33,682 nucleotides of DNA, taken from Nitrososphaerota archaeon (GTDB lineage Archaea; Thermoproteota; Nitrososphaeria; Nitrososphaerales; Nitrosopumilaceae). The position numbers and the translations under genes were made by a program. The notes under the pieces were generated by a model. That model saw nothing but the letters and a program-made list of their open reading frames with translations. It made no database searches and had not been told where the DNA came from. Numbering within the stretch: position 1 is the first letter of the stretch; every line of letters begins with the position of its first letter. The stretch is from assembly GCA_016215465.1 (NCBI GenBank), contig JACRJT010000027.1, positions 1 to 33,682 of the forward strand, written 5' to 3'. This document shows positions 6,350 to 18,155 of the stretch, piece by piece.

Positions 6350-6422
6350 GGCCTTCGTAGTACAGTGGCTAGTATAGGGGACTGTGGATCCCCGGACAGG
6401 GGTTCGATTCCCCTCGAGGGCC
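6350..6422 (+). tRNA. tRNA-His (GTG)
   Basis: Acceptor strand 6351-6357 pairs with 6415-6421 (one G-U). G-1 at 6350 can face the C discriminator at 6422, the hallmark of tRNA-His. The anticodon loop is CTGTGGA, giving anticodon GTG. The T arm is AGGGG-TTCGATT-CCCCT. CCA is not encoded and there is no intron. It marks the left edge of an accessory region, and a 14-nt partial copy of its 3' half lies about 100 bp downstream. Confidence 0.95.
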
Positions 6423-6491
6423 TACATAATTTTCCTGGAAAAATTTCAATAAAATCGTGTCTGAATTTTTGAAAAATTTGAGGTACTCGAA

Positions 6492-6505
6492 CCTCGGACA
6501 GGGGT
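6492..6505 (+). repeat. Partial copy of tRNA-His sequence (13/14 match)
   Basis: CCTCGGACAGGGGT matches tRNA-His bases 6390-6403 (CCCCGGACAGGGGT) with one mismatch, 102 bp away in the same orientation. A further CCCCC and GGCCC follow, as in a decayed T arm and acceptor end. A scar of this kind can be left when an element integrates in a tRNA gene, but it is short and could also be a local duplication. Apart from this and a promoter, 6424-6626 holds no recognisable gene. Confidence 0.45.
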
Positions 6506-6626
6506 CACCCCCGGCCCATTTATGAAAAAATTCCCAAAAAATAACTTCTAGCAACTTGGAAACTAAGCAGATCAATCAATTACACGTGTTAACAGCTTAT
6601 GCGCAATTGAAGCATTGTCTTTAAAA

Positions 6627-6642
6627 TAAGACATATGTCTTA
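6627..6642. promoter_or_regulatory. 16-bp palindromic operator candidate before the MNT/HEPN pair
   Basis: TAAGACATATGTCTTA is a perfect palindrome. The TATA-like TTAAATATA (about 6640-6648) overlaps its right edge and lies some 30 bp before ATG 6675, so a protein bound here would block transcription. The downstream nucleotidyltransferase carries an N-terminal winged helix and is a natural candidate for autoregulation. Confidence 0.5.
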
Positions 6643-6674
6643 AATATAGGACATATATAATATATTTAAGATAA

Positions 6675-7277
6675 ATGCTATTTCATAGATACCTAGAAGA
6701 AATAATAGGAAACAAGCCTGCCCTTAGCATGCTTCGTGCAATGGTTAGACAAAAGGGAATGATTTTTACCGTACGAAGACTGGCAGATGAGGCAAAGATC
6801 TCCATTAATGAGTGTGCTTTGACTACTCAACACCTTGAAAGGTTTGGAATTATAAACATTCAACCGATTGGGAAAGCTTACCATCTAACTCTAAACGAGA
6901 AAAGCTACATCCTAAATCAAATAATACAACTTATTTTTGATGCGGAAAAAAATACGATATCGCAATTGATTCAAACCCTGAAAAAATATCTTACTAGCAA
7001 TAAAATCACCTCGGCAGTATTATTTGGAAGTGTATCGAAAGGTGAAGAGCAGACGGATAGCGATGTAGATCTTTTGATTATATCAAATGATTTAGATAAT
7101 GCAATAGATGCAGTCTCAAAAGTAAGTTCGAAGGTGTTTGAAGTTTTCCATGGTAAGATATCTCATATAGTATTCTCTGAGAAACAATTCAAATCTAAAA
7201 AAAATAGTGATTTAATACAATCAATTCTTTCTGATCACATATTGATATGCGGTAAGGAGTTATCTGATATAAAATGA
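6675..7277 (+). CDS. Winged-helix/minimal nucleotidyltransferase (MNT-type antitoxin)
   Basis: 200 residues in two parts. Residues 1-80 form a winged helix (MVRQKGMIFTVRRLADEAKI, then recognition helix and wing). Residues 95-200 form a pol-beta-superfamily minimal nucleotidyltransferase with the GS-x10-D-x-D signature at 118-132 (G118, S119, D130, D132). In MNT/HEPN systems the nucleotidyltransferase neutralises the HEPN toxin, in studied cases by AMPylating it. The fused DNA-binding domain would let the antitoxin repress its own operon. The HEPN gene follows after 7 bp. Base composition is more AT-rich than the core genes, consistent with transfer. Confidence 0.85.
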   Translation: MLFHRYLEEIIGNKPALSMLRAMVRQKGMIFTVRRLADEAKISINECALTTQHLERFGIINIQPIGKAYHLTLNEKSYILNQIIQLIFDAEKNTISQLIQTLKKYLTSNKITSAVLFGSVSKGEEQTDSDVDLLIISNDLDNAIDAVSKVSSKVFEVFHGKISHIVFSEKQFKSKKNSDLIQSILSDHILICGKELSDIK

Positions 7278-7284
7278 CAAGACC

Positions 7285-7668
7285 GTGGATTCCAAAAAAG
7301 CAATCAATTACCTAATCAAAGCGGAAAATTCACTTCGTATAGCAAAGATCGCAATTGAACAACAAGCATACGATAATGCTGTAATGAGTTCAATTCATAG
7401 TGCTATTAACGCGCTTGATGCGCTTACTACATATCGTCTTAAAAAACGTTCATCGGGCCAACATACAGGTGTTCTTTCGCTTACTAGAGAAATATTTTCT
7501 GCTCAGGAACAAAATGATGTCGAAAAACAATTCAAACTATTGTTTGGCCTCAAGAATGCTTCGGAATACCAGCCGGAAATGATGAGCCAAAAAGATGCGG
7601 AAAACTCATTAAAATTGGCAGAACGGATTCTTGCCAAAGTCAAAACTAAATTACAAAAACAAGCATAA
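7285..7668 (+). CDS. HEPN-domain protein, probable toxin partner of the MNT gene
   Basis: 127 residues, all helical, with the typical HEPN layout: KAENSLRIAKIAIEQQAYDNAVMSS, then AINALDALTTYRL, a loop RSSGQH, and a closing helix pair. R55-x4-H60 fits the R-x4-6-H motif of HEPN RNases, although it lies in the loop after helix 2 rather than near the C-terminus, so catalytic activity is uncertain. The start is GTG at 7285, 7 bp after the MNT stop. As a pair they form a type VII-like toxin-antitoxin module or a nucleotide-transfer immunity unit. Confidence 0.8.
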   Translation: MDSKKAINYLIKAENSLRIAKIAIEQQAYDNAVMSSIHSAINALDALTTYRLKKRSSGQHTGVLSLTREIFSAQEQNDVEKQFKLLFGLKNASEYQPEMMSQKDAENSLKLAERILAKVKTKLQKQA

Positions 7669-7697
7669 ACTTTCTAATTAAGTCTAACAAAACCTGA

Positions 7698-7718
7698 GAG
7701 AATCAAACTAATCAGACA
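7698..7718 (+). repeat. Left copy of a 21-bp direct repeat (pair at 12555)
   Basis: The 21 bases here match 12555-12575 at 19 positions, in the same orientation. The two copies bracket 4.8 kb holding the helicase-nuclease, the CARF-like gene and the small-gene cluster. They may mark ends of an inserted segment. The 126 bp around this copy (7669-7794) show no gene. Confidence 0.45.
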
Positions 7719-7794
7719 ACGCCCCTTGAGAACCTACACTTTTTTGTTAGTCATGAGGATATGGGAGATTATCAAAATACGTATTTTTGGAATA

Positions 7795-10700
7795 TCATTC
7801 GTCGACTTCCTTCTGATCACAAATGCTCCAAAAATCACACATCCTGCAAGTCTGATAGCTAGGCGTTGCCTCAAACTCTTCATTTAGAATTGATTTGACT
7901 TTTTCATCAATGGCCTGCATAACCTTCTCGACTTGTTGTTTCTCGATCGGATTGTCTACAATTTTGTCATGCTTTAGATAAAACAGCGTAGTCTTTTGCG
8001 GCTGCTCACCATACAACTTCTCTACACCCAAAGCATAGATGTTCATCTGGGGATCTTCCCTGATTGACTTGCTGTTTTCATAGACTCCACCCGTCTTAAA
8101 ATCAATGACCTCGAACTTGCCGTCTGGAGTCTTTTCCACTCTATCGATAAAACCATTGAACGGGACACCGCCTATTTCCACGGTAAACCTCTGCTCTACT
8201 GCGACTGGTGAATTTGGATTTTCTTTTACCCACTTGAGGTATGTCCTGATCATTTCCTTTGCTTTCTCCTTTGATTGGTTCTCCTGAGTCTCGTTCTGGA
8301 AACCACTTGAACTCCACTCTCTTGCGAGTATCTCAAATGCAAGTTCCTCTGTTGGAGGTGTCCCTTCGAGCTGAAGTTTTGTCAGGTGTTCTGCCACCGC
8401 GTGTACTGCGCTTCCTAGATCAAAGTATGGTCTAGGGGGAGTAGGCACCTGCAGTATGTGAGCAAATTTGAATTTCAGCGGACAGTCAAGATACGTCTTG
8501 ATTTTCGATGCGCTTAGCCTTAGCTCCTCTTTGTTAATTACGGGAACTTTCTTTCCTTGAAGCTCAGCATCAAGACTTGTATCATTGTTGTCTATTTTCA
8601 GAATATCTTCTGGTTTGAAATTCTGGATTGTCCCGTTTTCCTCAAAGTGCTTTACCTTAGCAAGCTCAATTATTCTTTGAATGGCGCTTTTGAGGTGCAT
8701 CTGGTTGAGCGACCTTACGGCTTTTATCTGAAGATCCTGCTTTATTCTCTCGATTTTCTTTTCTTCTTCAAGCAAAGCTTCCCCATTTTGGCCTTGGTAT
8801 TCTACAACATTGATGAGTAGATTTTTGTCAAATTTTATGTCCTCTAGGAACTTTGAAGGCTTTGTTTCCCTGACATTCTGACCGTACCGCTTTGCATAAG
8901 TTATGTAGAGCATGTTTTGTGCCCTTGTCATTGCAACATATAACAATCTTCTTTCTTCTTGCACGTAGAGTTCCTTCTCGTCTTCTACCCTGATGACTCC
9001 TTTGGATAGCTCATTTGGAACATAGAATTTTTTTGCCTGGTATCTTAGCGGAAGCTTGTTAGTTGCAACATCAACAATGAAGACTACTGGAAATTCTTGG
9101 CCCTTACTCTGATGTATGGTGGTGACCGGTATGGAGTCATCCTCACCAATACCTTCCTTTAACTCGATGTCAAATTGACCCATCAGAGAAAGATATTTTA
9201 TGAAATCATCCAGCTCCCCTTGGGGGTTTAGCGACTCGTATTCTATTGATATGTTGTAAAACTCTTTCAATATCATTTGGTTCCTTCTGTTTTCCGGAGT
9301 GTCTGACTGTATGAGTCTCTTATAAAGATCAGAGACTGACACCATTATCTGGTAGACCATCTCATTAATTGTAGACTTGCTCTCAAGCTCGATTATTCTC
9401 TGAATTTGCTGCGCAATCTCCTTTACCTCATCTTTTTGCGTGACATCAAGACTGTCACAATTTTTCAACGTTTCAAAAACAAAGTCGATGTCTGTAGGAT
9501 CATTTCTTGCCTTCTTCATTGCAACATAGTTGATCCTAGCTATGTTCATCTCGGAAATTCCGTGGTTTTTCATCAGGCGGACAATCTCGATTCCTGCAGC
9601 AGTTGGCTTGTTTGCAATTCGCAAAAACGCCATCATGTCTCTTATGACTGGAGACGAAAAGATGTTGGATTCGCCAATGAATCTGGTTGGAAGGCCGTGT
9701 GCCTTCAATGACTTGGCAAACTTTTTCCCCTCTGATTTTCTTCGTGACAGTATGACAAAATCTTTGTAGGTGAGAGGGCTGTCCGTTCCGTCTCTTCGCT
9801 TAATCTTCTTCCCAAGAATCTCCTTTATGGTCTTGACCACAAACTCAACTTCGGCTGACTCATTTGCACACTGGGCAACAGTAATTTTGTCACCTTCCTC
9901 ATGCTCTGATTTGAGTTTTTTTTGCTGTCTTTCAGGCAGGCCTTCCAGCAATTGGCTTGCAAGACTTACTATGTTCTGCGGGCTGCGGTAGTTGCGACTC
10001 AAAACAACGATTGTAGTTTTTGGGAAATGAGACTGGAAATCCTTAAAGTTTGTCAGATATGCGCCCTGGAACCTGTATATGCTCTGGTCATCGTCTCCGA
10101 CAACTGTGACATTGCCTTCATTCGCAATTAATTTAACAAGTTCAAGCTGTGCAAAGTTGTTGTCCTGAAACTCGTCCACAAGAACATGCTTGAACTTTTT
10201 TTGATACTTTGAAAGAACGTTTGGCTTCTTTTTGAAGAGTTCAATTGTCTGTACGACCATGTCGTCAAAATCAATCACTGCCTTGCTTCGCTGAAATTCT
10301 TGGTATTTGAAATAAACTTTGCATAAATCCGATAATTTGAGAAGAAAGTTTCTTTCTTCATCTGAGATGCTTTTTTCTAGTTTCGTCCTGATGTATTTTT
10401 GAAGCTCTTCAGGAGATATCAGTTCGTCTTTGAATGTACTAATTCCGTCTATTATGGATTCTATGATTTCTACAGAATTGTTTCCAATTTCCAGATACTC
10501 TAGTTTGAAATCATCAATGTGTTTGAGGCCCCAGACCAGCTGAGAGGATCTTTTGATTACACCTGATGACATCCCAATACCTGAATCAAGGACATTGTCC
10601 TCAAGAACCTCTTTTGCAAAAGAATGAAACGTGCTGATTTCCATCTCTGTGACGTCTGTAAGTTTTTCGAGTCTTTGCTTCATCTCTTCTGCGGCTTTTT

Positions 10701-10875
10701 CAGAAAACGTAAGGCAAAGAATCTCGGAAGATTTTATTCCAGACCTGACAAGATGCAGTACTCGCTCAATAATTACTCTAGTCTTTCCACTCCCTGGGCC
10801 GGCAATCACAAGTAGTGGACTTCCTGAATGAGTAACAGCTTGGTGCTGTTCAGGATTTAATGTTATGCTCATCAT
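7795..10875 (-). CDS. UvrD/Rep-type superfamily-1 helicase fused to a RecB/AddB-like iron-sulfur nuclease
   Basis: 1026 residues. The helicase occupies about 1-690: Walker A GPGSGKT (26-32), DEFQD (234-238), GDDDQSIYRFQGA (260-272), NYRS (295-298), TTIHQSKGQEFP (585-595) and VAMTRAQ (647-653). After a linker, a PD-(D/E)XK nuclease domain (about 785-1026) shows GSAVH (821-825), D911 and the VIDFKTGG strand (D925, K927). C798, C1010, C1013 and C1019 match the four-cysteine iron-sulfur staple of AddB and Cas4-like nucleases. The architecture suggests 3'-5' unwinding coupled to end processing, as in AddAB-type repair or phage and plasmid defence. A TATA-like AAATAAAAATAG lies about 27 bp upstream of the ATG. 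It may be cotranscribed with the CARF-like gene 56 bp upstream. Confidence 0.93.
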   Translation of the reverse strand: MMSITLNPEQHQAVTHSGSPLLVIAGPGSGKTRVIIERVLHLVRSGIKSSEILCLTFSEKAAEEMKQRLEKLTDVTEMEISTFHSFAKEVLEDNVLDSGIGMSSGVIKRSSQLVWGLKHIDDFKLEYLEIGNNSVEIIESIIDGISTFKDELISPEELQKYIRTKLEKSISDEERNFLLKLSDLCKVYFKYQEFQRSKAVIDFDDMVVQTIELFKKKPNVLSKYQKKFKHVLVDEFQDNNFAQLELVKLIANEGNVTVVGDDDQSIYRFQGAYLTNFKDFQSHFPKTTIVVLSRNYRSPQNIVSLASQLLEGLPERQQKKLKSEHEEGDKITVAQCANESAEVEFVVKTIKEILGKKIKRRDGTDSPLTYKDFVILSRRKSEGKKFAKSLKAHGLPTRFIGESNIFSSPVIRDMMAFLRIANKPTAAGIEIVRLMKNHGISEMNIARINYVAMKKARNDPTDIDFVFETLKNCDSLDVTQKDEVKEIAQQIQRIIELESKSTINEMVYQIMVSVSDLYKRLIQSDTPENRRNQMILKEFYNISIEYESLNPQGELDDFIKYLSLMGQFDIELKEGIGEDDSIPVTTIHQSKGQEFPVVFIVDVATNKLPLRYQAKKFYVPNELSKGVIRVEDEKELYVQEERRLLYVAMTRAQNMLYITYAKRYGQNVRETKPSKFLEDIKFDKNLLINVVEYQGQNGEALLEEEKKIERIKQDLQIKAVRSLNQMHLKSAIQRIIELAKVKHFEENGTIQNFKPEDILKIDNNDTSLDAELQGKKVPVINKEELRLSASKIKTYLDCPLKFKFAHILQVPTPPRPYFDLGSAVHAVAEHLTKLQLEGTPPTEELAFEILAREWSSSGFQNETQENQSKEKAKEMIRTYLKWVKENPNSPVAVEQRFTVEIGGVPFNGFIDRVEKTPDGKFEVIDFKTGGVYENSKSIREDPQMNIYALGVEKLYGEQPQKTTLFYLKHDKIVDNPIEKQQVEKVMQAIDEKVKSILNEEFEATPSYQTCRMCDFWSICDQKEVDE

Positions 10876-10931
10876 TTCTCACGCTTGATGAGTTAGGCAA
10901 ATAAAAATAGTTGTTGTTAAATCTTTAGATA

Positions 10932-11672
10932 TTATATCAGAAATTCAGCTGCATGATTTCCTTCTGGCGTCATCTTTATCCATCTGTTTCTTCCAATCTT
11001 TTCAACTTCAATAAATCCCCATTGTTCTTCTAGGGGCTGTATGATATTTTTATCAAGACTTGCAAATCTGGCTTGCTCAAAATTTTCCTCTCTGGCATTT
11101 ACTGTAATCAGCTTGTTTTCTTCGGAAATCTTTGCCATCTCTTTCTTAGTTATTTTGCAGTTGTGATTTTTTACTATCTTTAATGCCTCAACAAGCTCGT
11201 GTTTTGGCTTGTGAATTTCGTATTTTGGCAATTCGACTAAATCCTTTAACCCAGTTGATTGTTGTTTTCCCTGAGTCGCAGGATAATTCTCAGGCTCTGC
11301 ATAATATGGCGTAGTATTGCTTTCTCGAAAAATCATGCATGCCATCATACACGCAATGGCTTGGATCTTTGAACCCGAGGACACATTTACGTAAATGTCA
11401 TTGTTTACTTCCTTTTCAAATATCTCCTTTACCGTTTTTAGAATCTGAAAAACATCACTTCGGTCAGATTCTGAGAACTCAACTCTGATCTTTTCTTTTT
11501 TGAACTCGTTTACAATTTTTTCAATGTATGGTTTAGCTTTGTCCTGTTCAGGGTTGCTGTCGCGGATTAACCAAATCTTATCGGCTTTCATCCTTATAGC
11601 TGGAAGTACAATTCTATCGATTTCAAAGCCGACAGGAGCTATGTGTATGCGTAATTTTGCTAGTTTACTCAT
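10932..11672 (-). CDS. CARF-like sensor with C-terminal helix-turn-helix (HFX_2341/DUF6293-like regulator)
   Basis: 246 residues from ATG 11672. The N-terminal half is a Rossmann-like domain (RIHIAPVGFEIDRIVLPAI, then KADKIWLIRDSN) with a glycine/serine-rich ligand loop YVNVSSGSKIQAIA, the usual CARF position. The C-terminal part is a winged helix (TKKEMAKI onward, ending in a short wing RNRWIKMTPEG). Proteins of this build are transcription factors that may respond to cyclic oligonucleotides. No CRISPR array or cas gene is in the window. The upstream ATG at 11693 lies inside a palindrome at the predicted transcription start, so 11672 is preferred. Divergent from the small-gene cluster. Confidence 0.75.
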   Translation of the reverse strand: MSKLAKLRIHIAPVGFEIDRIVLPAIRMKADKIWLIRDSNPEQDKAKPYIEKIVNEFKKEKIRVEFSESDRSDVFQILKTVKEIFEKEVNNDIYVNVSSGSKIQAIACMMACMIFRESNTTPYYAEPENYPATQGKQQSTGLKDLVELPKYEIHKPKHELVEALKIVKNHNCKITKKEMAKISEENKLITVNAREENFEQARFASLDKNIIQPLEEQWGFIEVEKIGRNRWIKMTPEGNHAAEFLI

Positions 11673-11684
11673 AATGATATGTAC

Positions 11685-11717
11685 AGTATGCATACTATTG
11701 TGATGTTATATAATAAT
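11685..11717. promoter_or_regulatory. Divergent promoter with 12-bp palindromic operator candidate
   Basis: AGTATGCATACT (11685-11696) is a perfect palindrome. Next to it TTATATAATAATTT (11706-11719) reads as a TATA box in both directions: about 28 bp before ATG 11739 on the plus strand, and about 26 bp before the palindrome on the minus strand, which places the palindrome over the CARF-gene start site. A regulator bound there would repress the CARF gene and could affect the divergent operon. Confidence 0.55.
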
Positions 11718-11738
11718 TTCTAAACTCATATCTGATTC

Positions 11739-11845
11739 ATGAGTCAAATCCACACACAAAACGCACAGCAAACCTCACTTTTTTTCCAAGGATAATTCGA
11801 GAGTTTGATGACAAGGACGAGCCAATGGTTTATGGAGGAAAATAA
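11739..11845 (+). pseudogene. Small leaderless gene broken or recoded at a T7 tract
   Basis: From ATG 11739, 28 bp after a TATA box, the frame reads MSQIHTQNAQQTSLFFQG and stops at 11793-11795. A shift of -1 at the seven T bases 11779-11785 continues as PRIIREFDDKDEPMVYGGK and ends with TAA at 11843-11845, directly abutting the TTG of the next gene with its strong ribosome site. The joined product would be 35 residues. U-UUU-UUU in the zero frame is a classic slippery heptamer, so programmed frameshifting, transcriptional slippage, a true mutation or a base-count error are all possible. No family recognised. Confidence 0.4.
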
Positions 11846-12007
11846 TTGCATCAAAACATCCCAAGCCAATCCATAATCCAAATTCTAGAAGAATCCCTTC
11901 AAAAACATCAGCAAAAATACAATTATCATAAAAAAATCACGCAAGGATATTACGAAATAATCAAGCAAACGGAGCTAAAACTACAAGAAATCAAAAACGT
12001 GAGATAA
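11846..12007 (+). CDS. 53-residue helical small protein
   Basis: Starts at TTG 11846, 7 nt after a strong Shine-Dalgarno GGAGG (11834-11838) that lies inside the end of the preceding frame. The product is polar and helical (IIQILEESLQKHQQKYNYHK, then YYEIIKQTELKLQEIK), likely a short coiled coil. It stops 2 bp before the next ATG. The tight spacing and ribosome site argue for a real gene despite its length. Family unknown. Confidence 0.6.
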   Translation: MHQNIPSQSIIQILEESLQKHQQKYNYHKKITQGYYEIIKQTELKLQEIKNVR

Positions 12008-12009
12008 AA

Positions 12010-12150
12010 ATGCTGGATGAAACCAAGATACGAAAATTACTTGATGATATCCGAATTGCCTACGAGATTGGATACCAAAATGATGATCTTGACACCGAGG
12101 CAGAAAAATGGGGACAGATTCAGATTTTGGAGTGGATTTTGTCAAAATGA
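12010..12150 (+). CDS. 46-residue acidic helical small protein
   Basis: ATG 12010 opens MLDETKIRKLLDDIRIAYEI and continues through acidic residues to WGQIQILEWILSK before TGA. The amphipathic pattern and normal codon choice favour this frame over the overlapping frame that starts at 12017, whose first 45 codons give an arginine/methionine-rich, unstructured-looking protein. It starts 2 bp after the preceding stop, so it belongs to the small-gene operon. Function unknown; small proteins of this kind are frequent in archaeal mobile elements. Confidence 0.6.
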   Translation: MLDETKIRKLLDDIRIAYEIGYQNDDLDTEAEKWGQIQILEWILSK

Positions 12151-12241
12151 AGGTTCAATATCATTTGAGGAATTACCGGTTACAAATATCCGATCCACAA
12201 AACTGGATCAAGCTTATTTAATTCTCAGTCTACTTAATGTT

Positions 12242-12382
12242 GTGCCAGATACAAAAAAGAAAATAAACCCAACAAAAGATGATTATAACAAAGCCTTGGC
12301 TTCTGATGCTCCTACAAAAATTACCACCTCTGACTTGGAAAACTTAGCTAAAGAAGCCATGAAAAAATTCAAATCCCTATGA
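12242..12382 (+). CDS. 46-residue lysine-rich small protein
   Basis: GTG 12242 opens a polar, lysine-rich product (VPDTKKKINPTKDDYNKALA onward, ending EAMKKFKSL). A TATA-like CTTATTTAATTC at about 12211-12222 lies 26 bp upstream, suggesting a leaderless start here, although the frame is open back to 12017. Its TGA overlaps the ATG of the next gene (ATGA), a sign of translational coupling that supports the 3' end. The start is uncertain. No family recognised. Confidence 0.45.
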   Translation: MPDTKKKINPTKDDYNKALASDAPTKITTSDLENLAKEAMKKFKSL

Positions 12383-12537
12383 ATCTAGAATGGGTTGTTA
12401 CTGGAATCATACTTTTTGGAGGAATTGCTGCTGGAGGAATCAGCTTGTATCTTAAAAGAAGAAAAGAATCTCTGATTTCTGATTCGTTTTATGATACTCA
12501 GCCGGATTTACCAGAGTCTGAAAAAGATAAAAAATAG
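12379..12537 (+). CDS. 52-residue single-span membrane protein
   Basis: ATG 12379 overlaps the preceding stop by 4 bp. Residues 4-24 form one hydrophobic helix with several glycines (WVVTGIILFGGIAAGGISLY), then a basic stop-transfer LKRRKE and an acidic cytoplasmic tail ending SEKDKK. Topology is N-out, C-in by the positive-inside rule. It is the last member of the small-gene operon, and a hairpin follows at 12541. A small membrane protein at the end of such an operon could be an effector, holin-like or an anchor; nothing in the sequence decides. Confidence 0.6.
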   Translation: MNLEWVVTGIILFGGIAAGGISLYLKRRKESLISDSFYDTQPDLPESEKDKK

Positions 12538-12540
12538 TTT

Positions 12541-12559
12541 TTCTCTCTAATGTAGAGAA
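12541..12559 (+). terminator. Hairpin after the small-gene operon
   Basis: TTCTCT (12541-12546) pairs with AGAGAA (12554-12559) around a 7-nt loop, starting 3 bp after the last stop codon and preceded by a short T run. Archaeal termination depends mainly on T tracts, so this may only be an end-protecting stem. Confidence 0.3.
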
Positions 12560-12575
12560 CCAAACTAATTAGACA
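12555..12575 (+). repeat. Right copy of the 21-bp direct repeat
   Basis: Matches 7698-7718 at 19 of 21 positions in the same orientation. Beyond the repeat, CTCAAGGG (12578-12585) is the reverse complement of CCCTTGAG next to the left copy, so the junctions differ. It may bound the helicase/CARF/small-gene segment. Confidence 0.45.
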
Positions 12576-12610
12576 GGCTCAAGGGTCGGATCATAGTTGA
12601 ATGATTTCAC

Positions 12611-12670
12611 CGCGCAGTGCAGAGCATGTAAGACTAGGGTCATAATCCCTGATCAGGGGCCTTGCACGGA
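12611..12670 (+). other. tRNA-like fragment, possible decayed tRNA-Met
   Basis: The run GCAGAGCATG followed by a 5-bp stem (12635-12639 with 12647-12651, one T-G pair) around TCATAAT recalls the D arm and anticodon arm of an elongator tRNA-Met. The loop is out of register: C replaces the invariant U33 if this stem is used. The T loop is missing and no acceptor helix can be drawn. I read it as a degenerate tRNA piece or chance resemblance, not a working tRNA. An inverted repeat ATATGCA/TGCATAT follows at 12679-12701. The rest of 12538-12762 shows no gene. Confidence 0.25.
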
Positions 12671-12762
12671 TTTAGAGTATATGCAATACATCAGTGCATA
12701 TCATATTCAATGCAAATGTGGTAAAAATGACTGGGAACTTTTGCAAAATTAGCTAAAATCTT

Positions 12763-14289
12763 CTATTTCTTTAGAATTTTCTTGAATTTGCCAAACACCC
12801 CGCTTGATCTGTATGTCTCATTGAATCTATTGAAGCATAACTGGCTGCAGAAATTCTTTGCGACAAGGGCATATTTTTTCGATATGATGTGAGATATGCA
12901 CACATAATCATTGCATTGGATGCATTTTTCCCTATGATTGGAACATATCATGGTCTTACACTCTATGCAGAGCACAGATCTGCAATTTTGGCATAAAGTC
13001 GATCTGCATATACCGCAAACCGTTTGCGGCCTGTGTTCGTTGCAAAAGTTTTTCCTGCAATCAACGCATACATGCGCGCACATCTCGCACAAAATATTTG
13101 AGCACATCAAGCAGGGGCGATTGTGGTTATCGCATGTGGTGGAATGGCACGCTAAACAAATGGAATTAGTGTCATTCTCACACGATTTGATTTGACATTT
13201 TGACATCTCGTCCAAAATAACATCGTCATCATCATACCCAAAGTAGATTCTTCGATATGTCTTGTCTCCAAGGTTGAATTTGACATCCCAAACAGGTACG
13301 TAAATGAGGTATGGCCCAATTATGCGAACGTCGTCTGCTCTTGGTCTTACAATTTTTTGCCTTTGTTCGTTTTTTGCAGTTGTATAATGTGTCCTAACTT
13401 CATTTTGTGCGGCGATTTGTTCACGCACTATTCGTATTACTTCTCTCTGATTTACAAACGATTCTGTTTTTTTGATTGTAAAACCTTTTTCTTGAACTGA
13501 TACATGCGTTTCCGCATTTGTGTAGTATTTTATCAAATGCTTGAAGACTGGATCATTTTCGGAAAGAATTGCACCCTGAGTTGCATCAACTATGACGGAT
13601 CCGACGTCATTACTATTTATTTTGCCAGTGCCCGGGTGCAGTGCTTGAACGTGTAATCTGTAATTTATCACTAAATACGGCTCTAGCTTTAGTGTAGAGT
13701 CTGATGGCACAAGATCGTGATTATTCATAATGTATCGTGGCGACTCATTCCAGAAATTAATTGGAAGTAGTCTTTCGCATCCTACTGTGCGGCCTATCGT
13801 TACAGATTTTTGCGCACGTATCTCGTCTGCAACTGTTCTCCTTTTATTTGCACTGAGACCTAGCCTTGTTTTAAAATAATCTTCAATGTCAGTTGCCTGT
13901 TTGGAATATGTGAGTTTTTTTAATCTTGTAATCTCGTCATGATCAAGCAAAACAATGTTTATTCCTTTTGTGTTTCGAACATGTTCTGCTCTTAAAGGCA
14001 AAGTATTTGCAATATCTCCAGAAGAAGCAAAGATTCCGTACTTTAGATTTTCAAATTCAAGCATTTCTACAAGGTGGGAAAATTGTTCAGAGCCTGGAGT
14101 TTGACCGTGCCAATCCTTGCATGAAACTCCTATAATTTCGCCGCTAGATGGTTCTTGTGCTAAAACATCCAAATCTCCAATCTGTTTTCCCTTGTGCATT
14201 ATCCTATGCGGCTGCTCTTTTATCACAAAGTCAGCACTGTGTAACATCAGCGCAATTTGGGTTTCAAACGATTCCCCAGGTTTTGACAA
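12763..14289 (-). CDS. PD-(D/E)XK (Mrr-like) nuclease with middle domain and 24-cysteine zinc-binding tail
   Basis: 508 residues. Residues 1-125 look like a restriction-endonuclease fold of the Mrr type: GDLDVLAQ (D41 as first metal ligand), then IIGVSCKDW (K58). The residue two before the lysine is serine rather than Glu or Gln, so activity is uncertain. Residues about 150-360 form an unrecognised mixed alpha/beta domain ending PYLIYVPVWDVKF. Residues 365-485 hold 24 cysteines, mostly as CxxC pairs with interspersed histidines (for example CLMC, CEMC, CGIC, CIEC, CIQC), suggesting a string of zinc ribbons or B-box/RING-like knuckles. The tail ends with basic residues. It may bind nucleic acid or protein. 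It lies next to the accessory region but could be an old archaeal gene. Confidence 0.7.
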   Translation of the reverse strand: MSKPGESFETQIALMLHSADFVIKEQPHRIMHKGKQIGDLDVLAQEPSSGEIIGVSCKDWHGQTPGSEQFSHLVEMLEFENLKYGIFASSGDIANTLPLRAEHVRNTKGINIVLLDHDEITRLKKLTYSKQATDIEDYFKTRLGLSANKRRTVADEIRAQKSVTIGRTVGCERLLPINFWNESPRYIMNNHDLVPSDSTLKLEPYLVINYRLHVQALHPGTGKINSNDVGSVIVDATQGAILSENDPVFKHLIKYYTNAETHVSVQEKGFTIKKTESFVNQREVIRIVREQIAAQNEVRTHYTTAKNEQRQKIVRPRADDVRIIGPYLIYVPVWDVKFNLGDKTYRRIYFGYDDDDVILDEMSKCQIKSCENDTNSICLACHSTTCDNHNRPCLMCSNILCEMCAHVCVDCRKNFCNEHRPQTVCGICRSTLCQNCRSVLCIECKTMICSNHREKCIQCNDYVCISHIISKKYALVAKNFCSQLCFNRFNETYRSSGVFGKFKKILKK

Positions 14290-14425
14290 TCATATCATAA
14301 CGTTGTAGTGTCCAATAAAATTTTCTTTTACATTGACAAATTGTGCCAACTATCTTAATTTTATACGATTATCAAGTCCTGTATACATCAAAAATAAATT
14401 TCACACAAATTTCCATACTGGAATC

Positions 14426-14599
14426 TTACTGGATATTACTAAGGGATGTTCCTTTTTCCTTAGCTTCTTTCTTTAATTCCACTATCTGCTGGTTTACATC
14501 CTCGATTTCTGCAATTAGCTCGTCTCTTTGTCTTACCAAAGTCTCATAATGTGACTGGTAAAGCATATGAAGCGATGCGGGCTCTACTGACTTTTTCAT
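14426..14599 (-). CDS. 57-residue coiled-coil small protein
   Basis: The minus-strand ATG at 14599 encodes a protein whose second half is a strong heptad-patterned helix (LVRQRDELIAEIEDVNQQIV and on to LKKEAKEKG). There is no signal or membrane segment. It is transcribed in the same direction as the nuclease gene 136 bp downstream and divergently from the dehydrogenase. Codon use looks normal. Prefoldin-like or structural small proteins have this look; no family assigned. The remaining bases of 14290-14425 hold no gene. Confidence 0.6.
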   Translation of the reverse strand: MKKSVEPASLHMLYQSHYETLVRQRDELIAEIEDVNQQIVELKKEAKEKGTSLSNIQ

Positions 14600-14722
14600 T
14601 TCGTATTGAGGAGTGGATTTTCCTTATCTTAACCTTGGTAATGGAGCAAAATTGACGTATTAGTAGCAAACTATGCTGTTTTTTAAAAACCCAAAAATAC
14701 CAAATCAAAAACACCTAATATC

Positions 14723-15697
14723 ATGAAAGCGCTTTATTTTGACGGCAAAAAACTTGTGATGAATTCTGATTATCCAAAGCCAAAATCTGGCGAAACTTTA
14801 GTCAAAGTTACTATGGCAGGAATCTGTGGAACGGACCTTGAGATCCTAAAGGGTTACATGTCTTATTCTGGCGTTCTGGGGCACGAATTTGTAGGAATAG
14901 TTGAGGATTCGCACAACAAAGAACTAGTCGGCAAAAGAATAGTAGGAGAGATCAATGCAGGATGCAAAAAATGCCCATCTTGCTTTTCAGGACTGGAACG
15001 ACATTGTCCAAATAGAACCGTTCTTGGAATATACAAAAGAGATGGGGCATTTGCAGAATACATTTCTCTTCCGGAAGAAAACATTCACGTAATACCTGAT
15101 TCTATATCTGACAGGCAGGCAGTGTTTGTAGAACCACTTGCAGCAGCATTTGAAATACTAGAACAATTACATTTAGAGTCAAGCTGGAAAATTGCTATTC
15201 TGGGAGATGGAAGACTTGCACAGCTTGTTGCTCGAGTCCTGAAGCTTTCATGTCGTGATATTACGTGCTTTGGGCACCATGAGAGAAAAACAATGCTTTT
15301 GCAAAAAATTGGAATTAAGACAAAAACTGCAATAGAAAATTCCGACGAACACTCGTATGATGTTGTAGTGGAGGCAACTGGGAGAGAATCTGGATTTTTG
15401 GATACAATAAAACTGGTAAGGCCAAGAGGAATCGTAATCCTAAAATCAACTATAGCATCGCAAAACAAAATTGACCTATCTCCAGCTATAATAAATGAGA
15501 TAACGTTCGTTGGTTCCAGATGCGGACCATTTAGGCCTGCCATAACTGCGCTGGCAACTGGTTTGGTGTCAGTCGATGATCTGATTGATGCAATATATCC
15601 AATTGATAGCTATGCCCAAGCCTTTGAGCATGCTGGAAAATCTGGCGCTCTTAAAATCATACTGGAATCAAAATCAGAAAAGACCATACTTGGTTGA
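14723..15697 (+). CDS. Zinc-dependent medium-chain alcohol/sugar dehydrogenase
   Basis: 324-residue MDR-family dehydrogenase. Catalytic zinc ligands are C35 (AGICGTD), H54-E55 (GHE) and E137. The structural zinc site is C81, C84, C87 and C95 (CKKCPSCFSGLERHC). The Rossmann loop is GDGRLA (161-166), shorter than the GxGxxG of most members. The closest named relatives by eye are threonine, sorbitol or glucose dehydrogenase-like enzymes; the substrate cannot be read from the sequence. A TATA-like TTTTTTAAAAA at about 14680-14690 lies upstream of ATG 14723. The 3' end overlaps the convergent gene at 15674 by 24 bp. Confidence 0.9.
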   Translation: MKALYFDGKKLVMNSDYPKPKSGETLVKVTMAGICGTDLEILKGYMSYSGVLGHEFVGIVEDSHNKELVGKRIVGEINAGCKKCPSCFSGLERHCPNRTVLGIYKRDGAFAEYISLPEENIHVIPDSISDRQAVFVEPLAAAFEILEQLHLESSWKIAILGDGRLAQLVARVLKLSCRDITCFGHHERKTMLLQKIGIKTKTAIENSDEHSYDVVVEATGRESGFLDTIKLVRPRGIVILKSTIASQNKIDLSPAIINEITFVGSRCGPFRPAITALATGLVSVDDLIDAIYPIDSYAQAFEHAGKSGALKIILESKSEKTILG

Positions 15698-16950: not shown

Positions 16951-18155
16951 TTGCAAAAAACCTACAAATTCAGACTGTATCCAAATTCTGAACAATCACA
17001 AAAACTGCATGTTACTCTGAATGCGGGTAGATAGATCTACAACCAGATGATTGAAAAAATAAACAAAGAAGGCTTACAAACAAGAAACGACTCAATTATT
17101 TTCTCACAGAACTGAAAGAGTCTGAAAAATGGTGTATTCACATCATTCCAAAATGCTTCAGATGATATCAACTCAGATTGATAGTGCTCAAAGGGGATTA
17201 ATCCAGCTAGAAAAAAATGACCACAAAACAGGTAATCTGAAATTTGCAAGATATTCAGAGTATCAAACATTCACATACAACCAATCAGGATTTGAAATCA
17301 AAGACGGCTTTTACATCTGTTCAAAATAGGCAAAATCAGGATAATGCAACACAGACAGATTCCAGAAAATTCAGAAATAAAACAAATCGCAGTAACAAAA
17401 TCAAAATCAGGAAAATGATATGCTTGTGTTACATGTCAGATTGATGTAATGCTGCCAAAAATTAATTTTGTAAAATCTGTTGGAATCGATGTGGGAATGA
17501 AGAATTTTGCATATGATTCAGACGGATTTGTGACGCCGAACCCACTTAATCTGCAAAAGATGCTCAAACCTCTGGCAAGAATACAAAGAAAGATATCAAG
17601 AAGACAGAAAGGCTCAAACAATAGAAAGAAAGCAGTGCGATTCTATCAAATAATGCATGAGAGAATTAGAAACAAAAGGCGTGATTTTCTGCACAAGCTG
17701 TCAACCAAGTATGCCAAAAAATACGACGCTGTATTTGTGGAAAAATTACAAAAAATGAACATGGTAAAAAACCACTGCTTTGCAAAAAACATTCTGGATT
17801 CCGGTTGGGGAACATTCACAACATGCTTGACTACAAGTGTGTTCTAGTTGAGGTTCCTGCAAGAAACACAAGCACTGACTGCTCGAGATGTGGAACTGCA
17901 ATACAAAAATCTCTGGCAATCAGAATTCATAGATGCAATAAGTGTGGCCTTGTACTGGACAGGGATCATAATGCCAGTATTAATATTTTGAAAAAAGGAT
18001 TAGCAATTTTCGGAATTATTTTAAAGTATGATCACTTAAGCAATGAATTACCGCAGGGACTGCGGGAAATTACACCTGTGGAGATCTTAAGGAGGTCAAG
18101 GAAGCAGGAAGCCACAACTTTAACGAATGGTAGTTCACTCTCTTATGCCCTCTAA
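16951..18155 (+). pseudogene. tnpB: Degenerate TnpB (IS605/IS1341-type OrfB) RNA-guided nuclease
   Basis: TnpB similarity can be followed across several frames. From TTG 16951: MQKTYKFRLYPNSEQ, with stops at 17032 and 17113. After a shift near 17128: KTGNLKFARYSEYQTFTYNQ up to 17329. A further frame has a stop at 17416 in place of Trp and continues GIDVGMKNFAY to about 17810. The last frame runs from 17805: VEVPARNTSTDCSRCG onward. RuvC residues D (GIDVG), E (FVEKLQ) and D (DRDHNA) and the four zinc cysteines all survive, but at least three stops and three frame changes rule out a working protein. A short deletion sits near 17830. No TnpA is nearby. Confidence 0.9.
18051..18138 (+). mobile_element. 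Right end / omega-RNA-like region of the TnpB element
   Basis: CCGCAG (18051-18056) and CTGCGG (18060-18065) form a perfect 6-bp hairpin. The sequence ends in AATGGTAGTTCA, the type of 3' end seen in archaeal IS605/IS1341 elements, where the omega RNA scaffold meets the guide. The usual terminal stem before GGTAGTTCA is only half preserved (GCCACAACTT has no full partner). The element ends about 18138, inside the stop codon of the UPF0147 gene. Confidence 0.55.

Follow-up and report, generated by a model that had tools for sequence, protein, structure and literature searches.

The Escherichia coli type IV enzyme Mrr has the Mrr_cat fold in common with the archaeal protein described here, but it also contains an Mrr_N winged helix, which is lacking from the archaeal protein, the nuclease domain of which begins at residue 5. 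In addition, E. coli Mrr carries an acidic or Gln residue where the archaeal protein has the Ser of an S-C-K motif. In enzymes of this fold, loss of the Glu of E-x-K usually abolishes cutting. NgoMIV and Cfr10I possess a migrated Glu, located in a helix 13–14 residues after the Lys. These NgoMIV/Cfr10I (CCGG) enzymes and PfoI provide precedent for PD-(D/E)XK sites in which the usual acid of D/E-x-K is missing, their likeness to the archaeal protein being one of residue pattern. PfoI, a PD-(D/E)XK enzyme with the second acid two residues ahead of the active-site Asp (E113...E167-x-D169...K187), shows that such a permuted site is functional (PMC6344858). Two haloarchaeal proteins annotated "restriction endonuclease", of Haloarcula marismortui (WP_011222458) and Halorubrum (WP_129452610), have the same domain order as the archaeal protein.

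The DNA analysed, a stretch of 33,682 nucleotides from a Nitrososphaerota archaeon that is referred to below as the window, contains at 12763–14289 (minus strand) an ORF specifying a 508 amino acid protein with a PD-(D/E)XK (Mrr_cat) domain, a middle domain and a zinc-repeat tail. Its TTG start codon lies immediately behind an in-frame TGA; the TTG position is conserved in the Nitrosotenuis orthologs, the ortholog L075 having ATG. The Nitrosotenuis orthologs (83–86% identity) were found in four of the 16 other genomes of the genus searched, and further orthologs in a Nitrosarchaeum MAG (L074; 75%) and in two other Thaumarchaeota MAGs (L075, 64%; L076, 45%). Between the closer ortholog pairs dN was approximately 0.02–0.16 against a dS of approximately 0.57 upward, and dN was far below dS in the nuclease, middle and tail parts alike, wherever dS could be estimated. 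The orthologs and the low dN indicate that the ORF is a real gene, maintained under purifying selection. No viral, plasmid or phage homologs of the protein were found, nor were there matches to families of NCBIfam and PHROGs or, at E-values up to 0.1, to the defence models of PADLOC-DB.

Nuclease domain and active site

A nuclease fold at the N-terminus, with SCK replacing the Glu of E-x-K, had been proposed in the original prediction, and both elements are present. The domain comprises residues 1–145 (13855–14289, minus strand). Pfam Mrr_cat (PF04471) matches residues 5–123 with 26.6 bits against a cut-off of 21 (E-value=6.9e-6), and is the sole Pfam match of the protein at E-values up to 0.1. 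The AF2 model, based on seven orthologs, has pLDDT values mostly of 75–89 over residues 8–145 and the element order of a PD-(D/E)XK core (helix 8–18, strands 22–58, helix 66–79, strand 84–89, helix 98–108, strand 111–115). Foldseek comparison of the domain with the PDB gave EcoT38I as the best match (E-value=5.7e-4), followed with weaker E-values by Cdn1, Can2, NucS/EndoMS, the Avs4 nuclease and HindIII, while the family profile matched the solved structures of AF1548 (3e-5), LlaBIII (9e-5) and, weakly, Hjc (0.04). An N-terminus without a nuclease fold is ruled out by Pfam, AF2 and Foldseek. Invariant positions among the orthologs number 63 of 144 in this domain, 56 of 217 in the middle domain and 47 of 146 in the tail, and the nuclease domain has the lowest dN of the three parts (0.02–0.06 against the Nitrosotenuis orthologs).

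The motif S56-C57-K58 (14116–14124, minus strand) replaces E-C-K. Position 56 is invariably Ser in the orthologs and Glu in nine of nine related family members aligned. Two conserved acids form the motif D39-x-D41 (14167–14175, minus strand), and E9, D39, D41 and K58 are all invariant among the orthologs. Set against the catalytic pattern D...(D/E/Q)-x-K, D41 and K58 are present and the place of the acid is taken by S56. D39 is most likely the candidate for a carboxylate replacing the lost Glu, by analogy with PfoI; the arrangements E-x-D...K of PfoI and D39-x-D41...S56-x-K58 are analogous at the sequence level only. A migrated Glu of the NgoMIV/Cfr10I type was judged less likely than D39, the residue at K+14 being H72, which is invariant but not acidic; E68 is Gln in L076, and E78, although invariant, is found only at K+20. 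An acid at K+1 (D59 or E59) occurs in six of six aligned orthologs of the S56 clade and in none of nine relatives. It was set aside as the replacement, representing as it does one evolutionary event and a strand position that faces away from the site.

Middle domain, zinc-repeat tail and their relatives

The middle domain (residues 146–362; 13204–13854, minus strand) is made up of two halves (PYLVINY...VIVDA and LIYVPVWDVKF...YRR...DE). It gave no match to any Pfam family, in keeping with the original prediction of a domain of no known family. Once the Cys region had been removed, hhalign related it to the middle domains of four other nuclease subfamilies (E-values of 1e-13, 1e-8, 6e-7 and 1e-6). 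In one of these (L026, 1570–2832, minus strand; by inspection also L161, 442–1698) the middle domain and Cys module stand behind a different nuclease-like N-terminal domain (HPDFYLP..VYVEFWG), of the PD-(D/E)XK type by inspection. This N-terminal domain is unrelated in sequence to Mrr_cat and shows a weak match to Phage_endo_I (0.001), whereas the middle domain and the closing Cys element are in common with the window protein. The presence of the middle domain behind a second type of nuclease domain is what would be expected if the effector were exchangeable and the targeting part held in common.

The tail (residues 363–508; 12766–13203, minus strand) carries 24 of the 26 Cys residues of the protein, at residues 365–485, with eight CxxC motifs. 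A density of 24 Cys in 124 residues was reached by none of 2000 shuffles, and the Cys-rich tail first noticed is thereby substantiated. Reading from its N-terminal side, and with all features on the minus strand, the tail consists of an opening Cys pair that is invariant in the orthologs (C365/C370; 13180–13197), six in-register CxxCx4Cxx[C/H] units with a period of 15–17 residues (residues 378–467; 12889–13158), and a closing element (residues 471–485; 12835–12879) with the pair C481/C485. The motif CxxCx4Cxx[CH] occurs seven times, at residues 378, 393, 408, 425, 433, 441 and 456, that at 433 bridging two units, and seven were reached by none of 20000 tail shuffles. Taken together with four His, the 24 Cys make up 14 pairs (the opening, twelve in the six units, and the closing). 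Across orthologs down to 45% identity, 27 of these 28 ligands are invariant against 20 of the 118 other tail residues (Fisher p approximately 1e-15). Judged by the ligand count, the tail would accommodate up to seven zincs, rather than the four to six first proposed.

The proposal of zinc knuckles did not hold. The retroviral CCHC knuckle has the spacing CX2CX4HX4C, to which the CX2CX4CX2[C/H] units do not conform. AN1 and B-box fingers have a CxxCx4CxxH core, which the units resemble in spacing; Pfam gave no AN1 or B-box match in the window protein. The tail of the relative L007 matched B-box and AN1 models with E-values of 0.003–0.06, below the cut-offs, and the window tail an AN1 structure weakly (E-value=1.2). 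The AF2 model of the tail, from seven sequences, has a pLDDT of 38.

The order of Mrr domain, this middle domain and a short Cys cluster is found again in further Thermoproteota and among the haloarchaea. The haloarchaeal proteins L126 and L127, annotated "restriction endonuclease", align over 79% of the relative L029 with approximately 21% identity (tblastn of L029), and contain by inspection the Mrr domain, the middle domain and the Cys cluster. Some relatives possess N-terminal zinc ribbons, and the haloarchaeal proteins have a hydrophobic segment at the C-terminus. E-C-K and only a short Cys cluster are found in the relatives L007/L008, L029–L033 and L036/L071, whereas the window clade has S-C-K and an expanded array. 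The window protein shows both traits of this unnamed family, the homologous middle domain and the C-terminal Cys cluster with a closing pair. On sequence comparison, the gene is a divergent member of a widespread archaeal nuclease family, its clade being set apart by the expanded Cys array and the invariant E-to-S change. The architecture was originally not recognised, and the family does lack a name; the architecture is nevertheless not unique, being found in other Thermoproteota and haloarchaea, with the tail also on HerA ATPases.

Other arrangements of these parts were observed. Two proteins of approximately 600 amino acids from two Nitrosopumilaceae genera (L163, 307–2115; L164, 1141–2901, minus strand) combine a middle part resembling a coiled coil with a long array of similar Cys pairs that lacks the closing element. 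A Bathyarchaeia-like Mrr protein (L128, 965–2215), in which two FYPYY segments flank a winged-helix-like region, may show the middle domain in yet another architecture.

Profiles of the window protein also match the C-termini of ATPases of approximately 880–1030 amino acids in other archaea. These are HerA-type (DUF87) proteins, found throughout Bathyarchaeia-like and in some Nitrososphaera-like genomes (inferred lineages), for example at L108 (7361–10393), L110 (7252–10272), L111 (6880–9873) and L109 (7965–10607, minus strand), and their C-terminal arrays contain 22–56 Cys. The HerA ATPases L108, L109, L111 and L112 possess 15-residue CxxCx4Cxx[C/H] units and a closing element, as does the window tail, but have a DUF87 ATPase and a coiled coil where the window protein has its nuclease domain and the first half of the middle domain. 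The same 15-residue period is found in the HerA tails of L009, L038 and L040 and in L007. By Pfam the window protein has no DUF87 ATPase domain, and the tail alone is in common with the HerA family.

The closing element was examined with an HMM of 23 HerA tail ends, each nuclease tail being scored against 500 decoys with the Cys and His held fixed, a choice intended to exclude a purely compositional match. The real score exceeded all 500 decoys in eight of ten nuclease tails. The margin was large for L071 (38.5 versus 23.9 bits for the best decoy), L007 (33.0 versus 27.4) and L008, and small for the window tail (16.2 versus 15.5); L010 was equalled by one decoy, and the haloarchaeal tail did not pass. 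The segments just ahead of the tail in nucleases and HerA proteins matched moderately by hhalign (46% probability over 48 columns). The tail module has no Pfam family, and no description of it was found in the literature searched, most subscription journals being outside that scope. Its presence in both nucleases and HerA suggests a shared, undescribed targeting or docking module.

In the genome of the window itself the tail profile matched the window gene only and no HerA with the same tail was found, so a direct nuclease–HerA partnership is not supported there. The genes for HerA proteins that carry this tail have ordinary chromosomal neighbourhoods; the tail itself is therefore not specific to defence. 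Those of L108 and L110 have a common neighbouring gene order, with apparent nucleoside-metabolism genes.

Genomic island and neighbouring genes

The gene lies in a variable island of approximately 8.3 kb (6424–14722), bounded on one side by tRNA-His (6350–6423, plus strand; ARAGORN and Rfam) and on the other by an alcohol dehydrogenase (ADH) gene (14723–15697, plus strand), which occurs in genomes irrespective of whether they have the nuclease-family gene. In the Nitrosotenuis genomes L086 and L088 the site is empty, tRNA-His lying approximately 35–45 bp ahead of the ADH start, and L083 and L084 have other content between the two. Neither an integrase within the island nor att repeats of at least 10 nucleotides between tRNA-His and the ADH end were found. 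Besides the nuclease-family gene, the island contains an MNT-HEPN pair, a UvrD-RecB gene, a CARF gene and short ORFs, so that the gene has neighbours of defence type.

The MNT nucleotidyltransferase and HEPN genes, a pair of the toxin-antitoxin type (PADLOC PDC-M05A/B), directly follow tRNA-His at 6675–7668; a HEPN homolog lies near ADH in the genome G003 (L082), which lacks the nuclease-family gene at this place. The CARF gene (10932–11693) is HFX_2341/Csa3-like. As an obligate partner it was rejected, being present without the nuclease gene in four members of the genus. Its ortholog in G006 (L013) is only 63% identical, where neighbours are approximately 78–92% identical and the genes beyond differ, a pattern suggestive of local replacement. 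A 46 amino acid ORF (MLDETKIRKLL...) lies in a stretch (12010–12150) conserved between Nitrosotenuis genomes, and the 121 amino acid ORF that overlaps it in another frame (12017–12382) probably does not represent a gene in the form listed. A match to the n00280 sRNA (8891–8988), which falls short of the gathering score and lies within the helicase gene, was treated as chance. Outside the island, a TnpB remnant is split across two frames at 17449–18155.

Elsewhere, the ortholog L076 adjoins an OLD/GajA-like ATPase-TOPRIM gene and is directly followed by a J-domain gene, a phage-type integrase lies approximately 4 kb from the ortholog L074, and the relative L029 is situated directly behind AbiV-HEPN and a PADLOC candidate gene. 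Terminase-like genes beside L075 were dropped from consideration, having no Pfam or PHROGs support. The neighbours of L074, L075, L076 and the window gene differ, with no conserved operon partner. Since there is no constant partner gene, a defence role is likely but unproven.

Proposed function and alternatives

Taken as a whole, the data point, with a probability of roughly 50%, to a variant nuclease of an unnamed family, targeted by its zinc module, with a permuted active site and a probable role in defence. The tail would bind several zincs (up to seven) in a chain of AN1/B-box-like paired-site fingers, and the middle domain and tail together would act as a recognition or docking module. 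This module would deliver the nuclease domain to its target, either DNA or nucleoprotein, for which invading DNA, or DNA that a motor is processing, is the most likely candidate. With the active-site Glu changed to Ser, D39 would most likely supply the carboxylate, and the variant site D39-x-D41...S56-x-K58 would still nick or cut. Because the gene is variable cargo of the tRNA-His island, it would probably act in defence against mobile elements or in their competition with one another. In sum, the protein is probably a DNA-acting, defence-linked member of the nuclease family that is targeted by a zinc module. A bolder proposal, which we hold to be doubtful, is that the tail serves archaea as a docking module, so far undescribed, through which HerA pumps and interchangeable nucleases load on one common partner or DNA structure, and that the window clade has a new permuted PD-(D/E)XK site, D-x-D...S-x-K.

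The main rival, a tentative possibility, is a catalytically dead reader in which the E-to-S change abolished cutting, the Mrr domain only binding nucleic acid or dimerising and the zinc array enabling the protein to work as a sensor or adaptor. It would account for a Ser that is invariant in the clade where all nine aligned relatives have Glu, and an inactive REase-like Pfam family exists (NA-iREase1), with weak matches to the relatives L007, L028, L029 and L036. Dead PD-(D/E)XK domains, however, often lose the Lys and Asp as well, and here E9, D39, D41 and K58 are all kept in the part of the protein under the strongest constraint, which argues against simple decay. In another rival reading, the nuclease fold would be secondary and the zinc array an AN1/B-box/RING-like protein-interaction scaffold, to which a ubiquitin-like SAMP, a chaperone or some partner machine would bind. 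Such a protein-directed adaptor is in line with the weak B-box and AN1 matches of the L007 tail, with that of the window tail to an AN1 structure, and with the J-domain gene after L076. We consider it unlikely, as no profile match rose above its cut-off, a J-domain neighbour was seen at a single locus, and attachment of the module to nucleases and HerA DNA motors points to DNA transactions; nothing specific was found for the ubiquitin-like or SAMP partners suggested at the outset.

With 28 candidate ligands the array might instead buffer zinc or sense oxidation, the nuclease fold being its output or a vestige, but the fixed 15-residue register, alternating Cys/His and conserved closing element speak for a structural array that is not metallothionein-like, and no metal-handling genes were recognised nearby, so that a metal or redox store or sensor appears highly improbable. 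As to the tail itself, Cys-rich sequences inflate profile scores, and the nuclease and HerA tails could be alike through composition alone, without common descent; the limited match of the pre-tail segments and the small margin of the window closing element would agree with this. It is nonetheless hard to reconcile with the success of the closing element against Cys/His-fixed decoys in most nuclease tails and with the unit register common to both groups, and is regarded as improbable.

For the preferred reading of a variant, zinc-targeted nuclease, the invariant E-to-S change beside otherwise intact catalytic residues offers a clean test of carboxylate relocation in the Mrr family. The gene is a candidate defence gene for the ammonia-oxidising archaea, in which few have been characterised, and a module of nucleases and HerA motors would provide a handle on target finding, which is poorly understood in the Thermoproteota.
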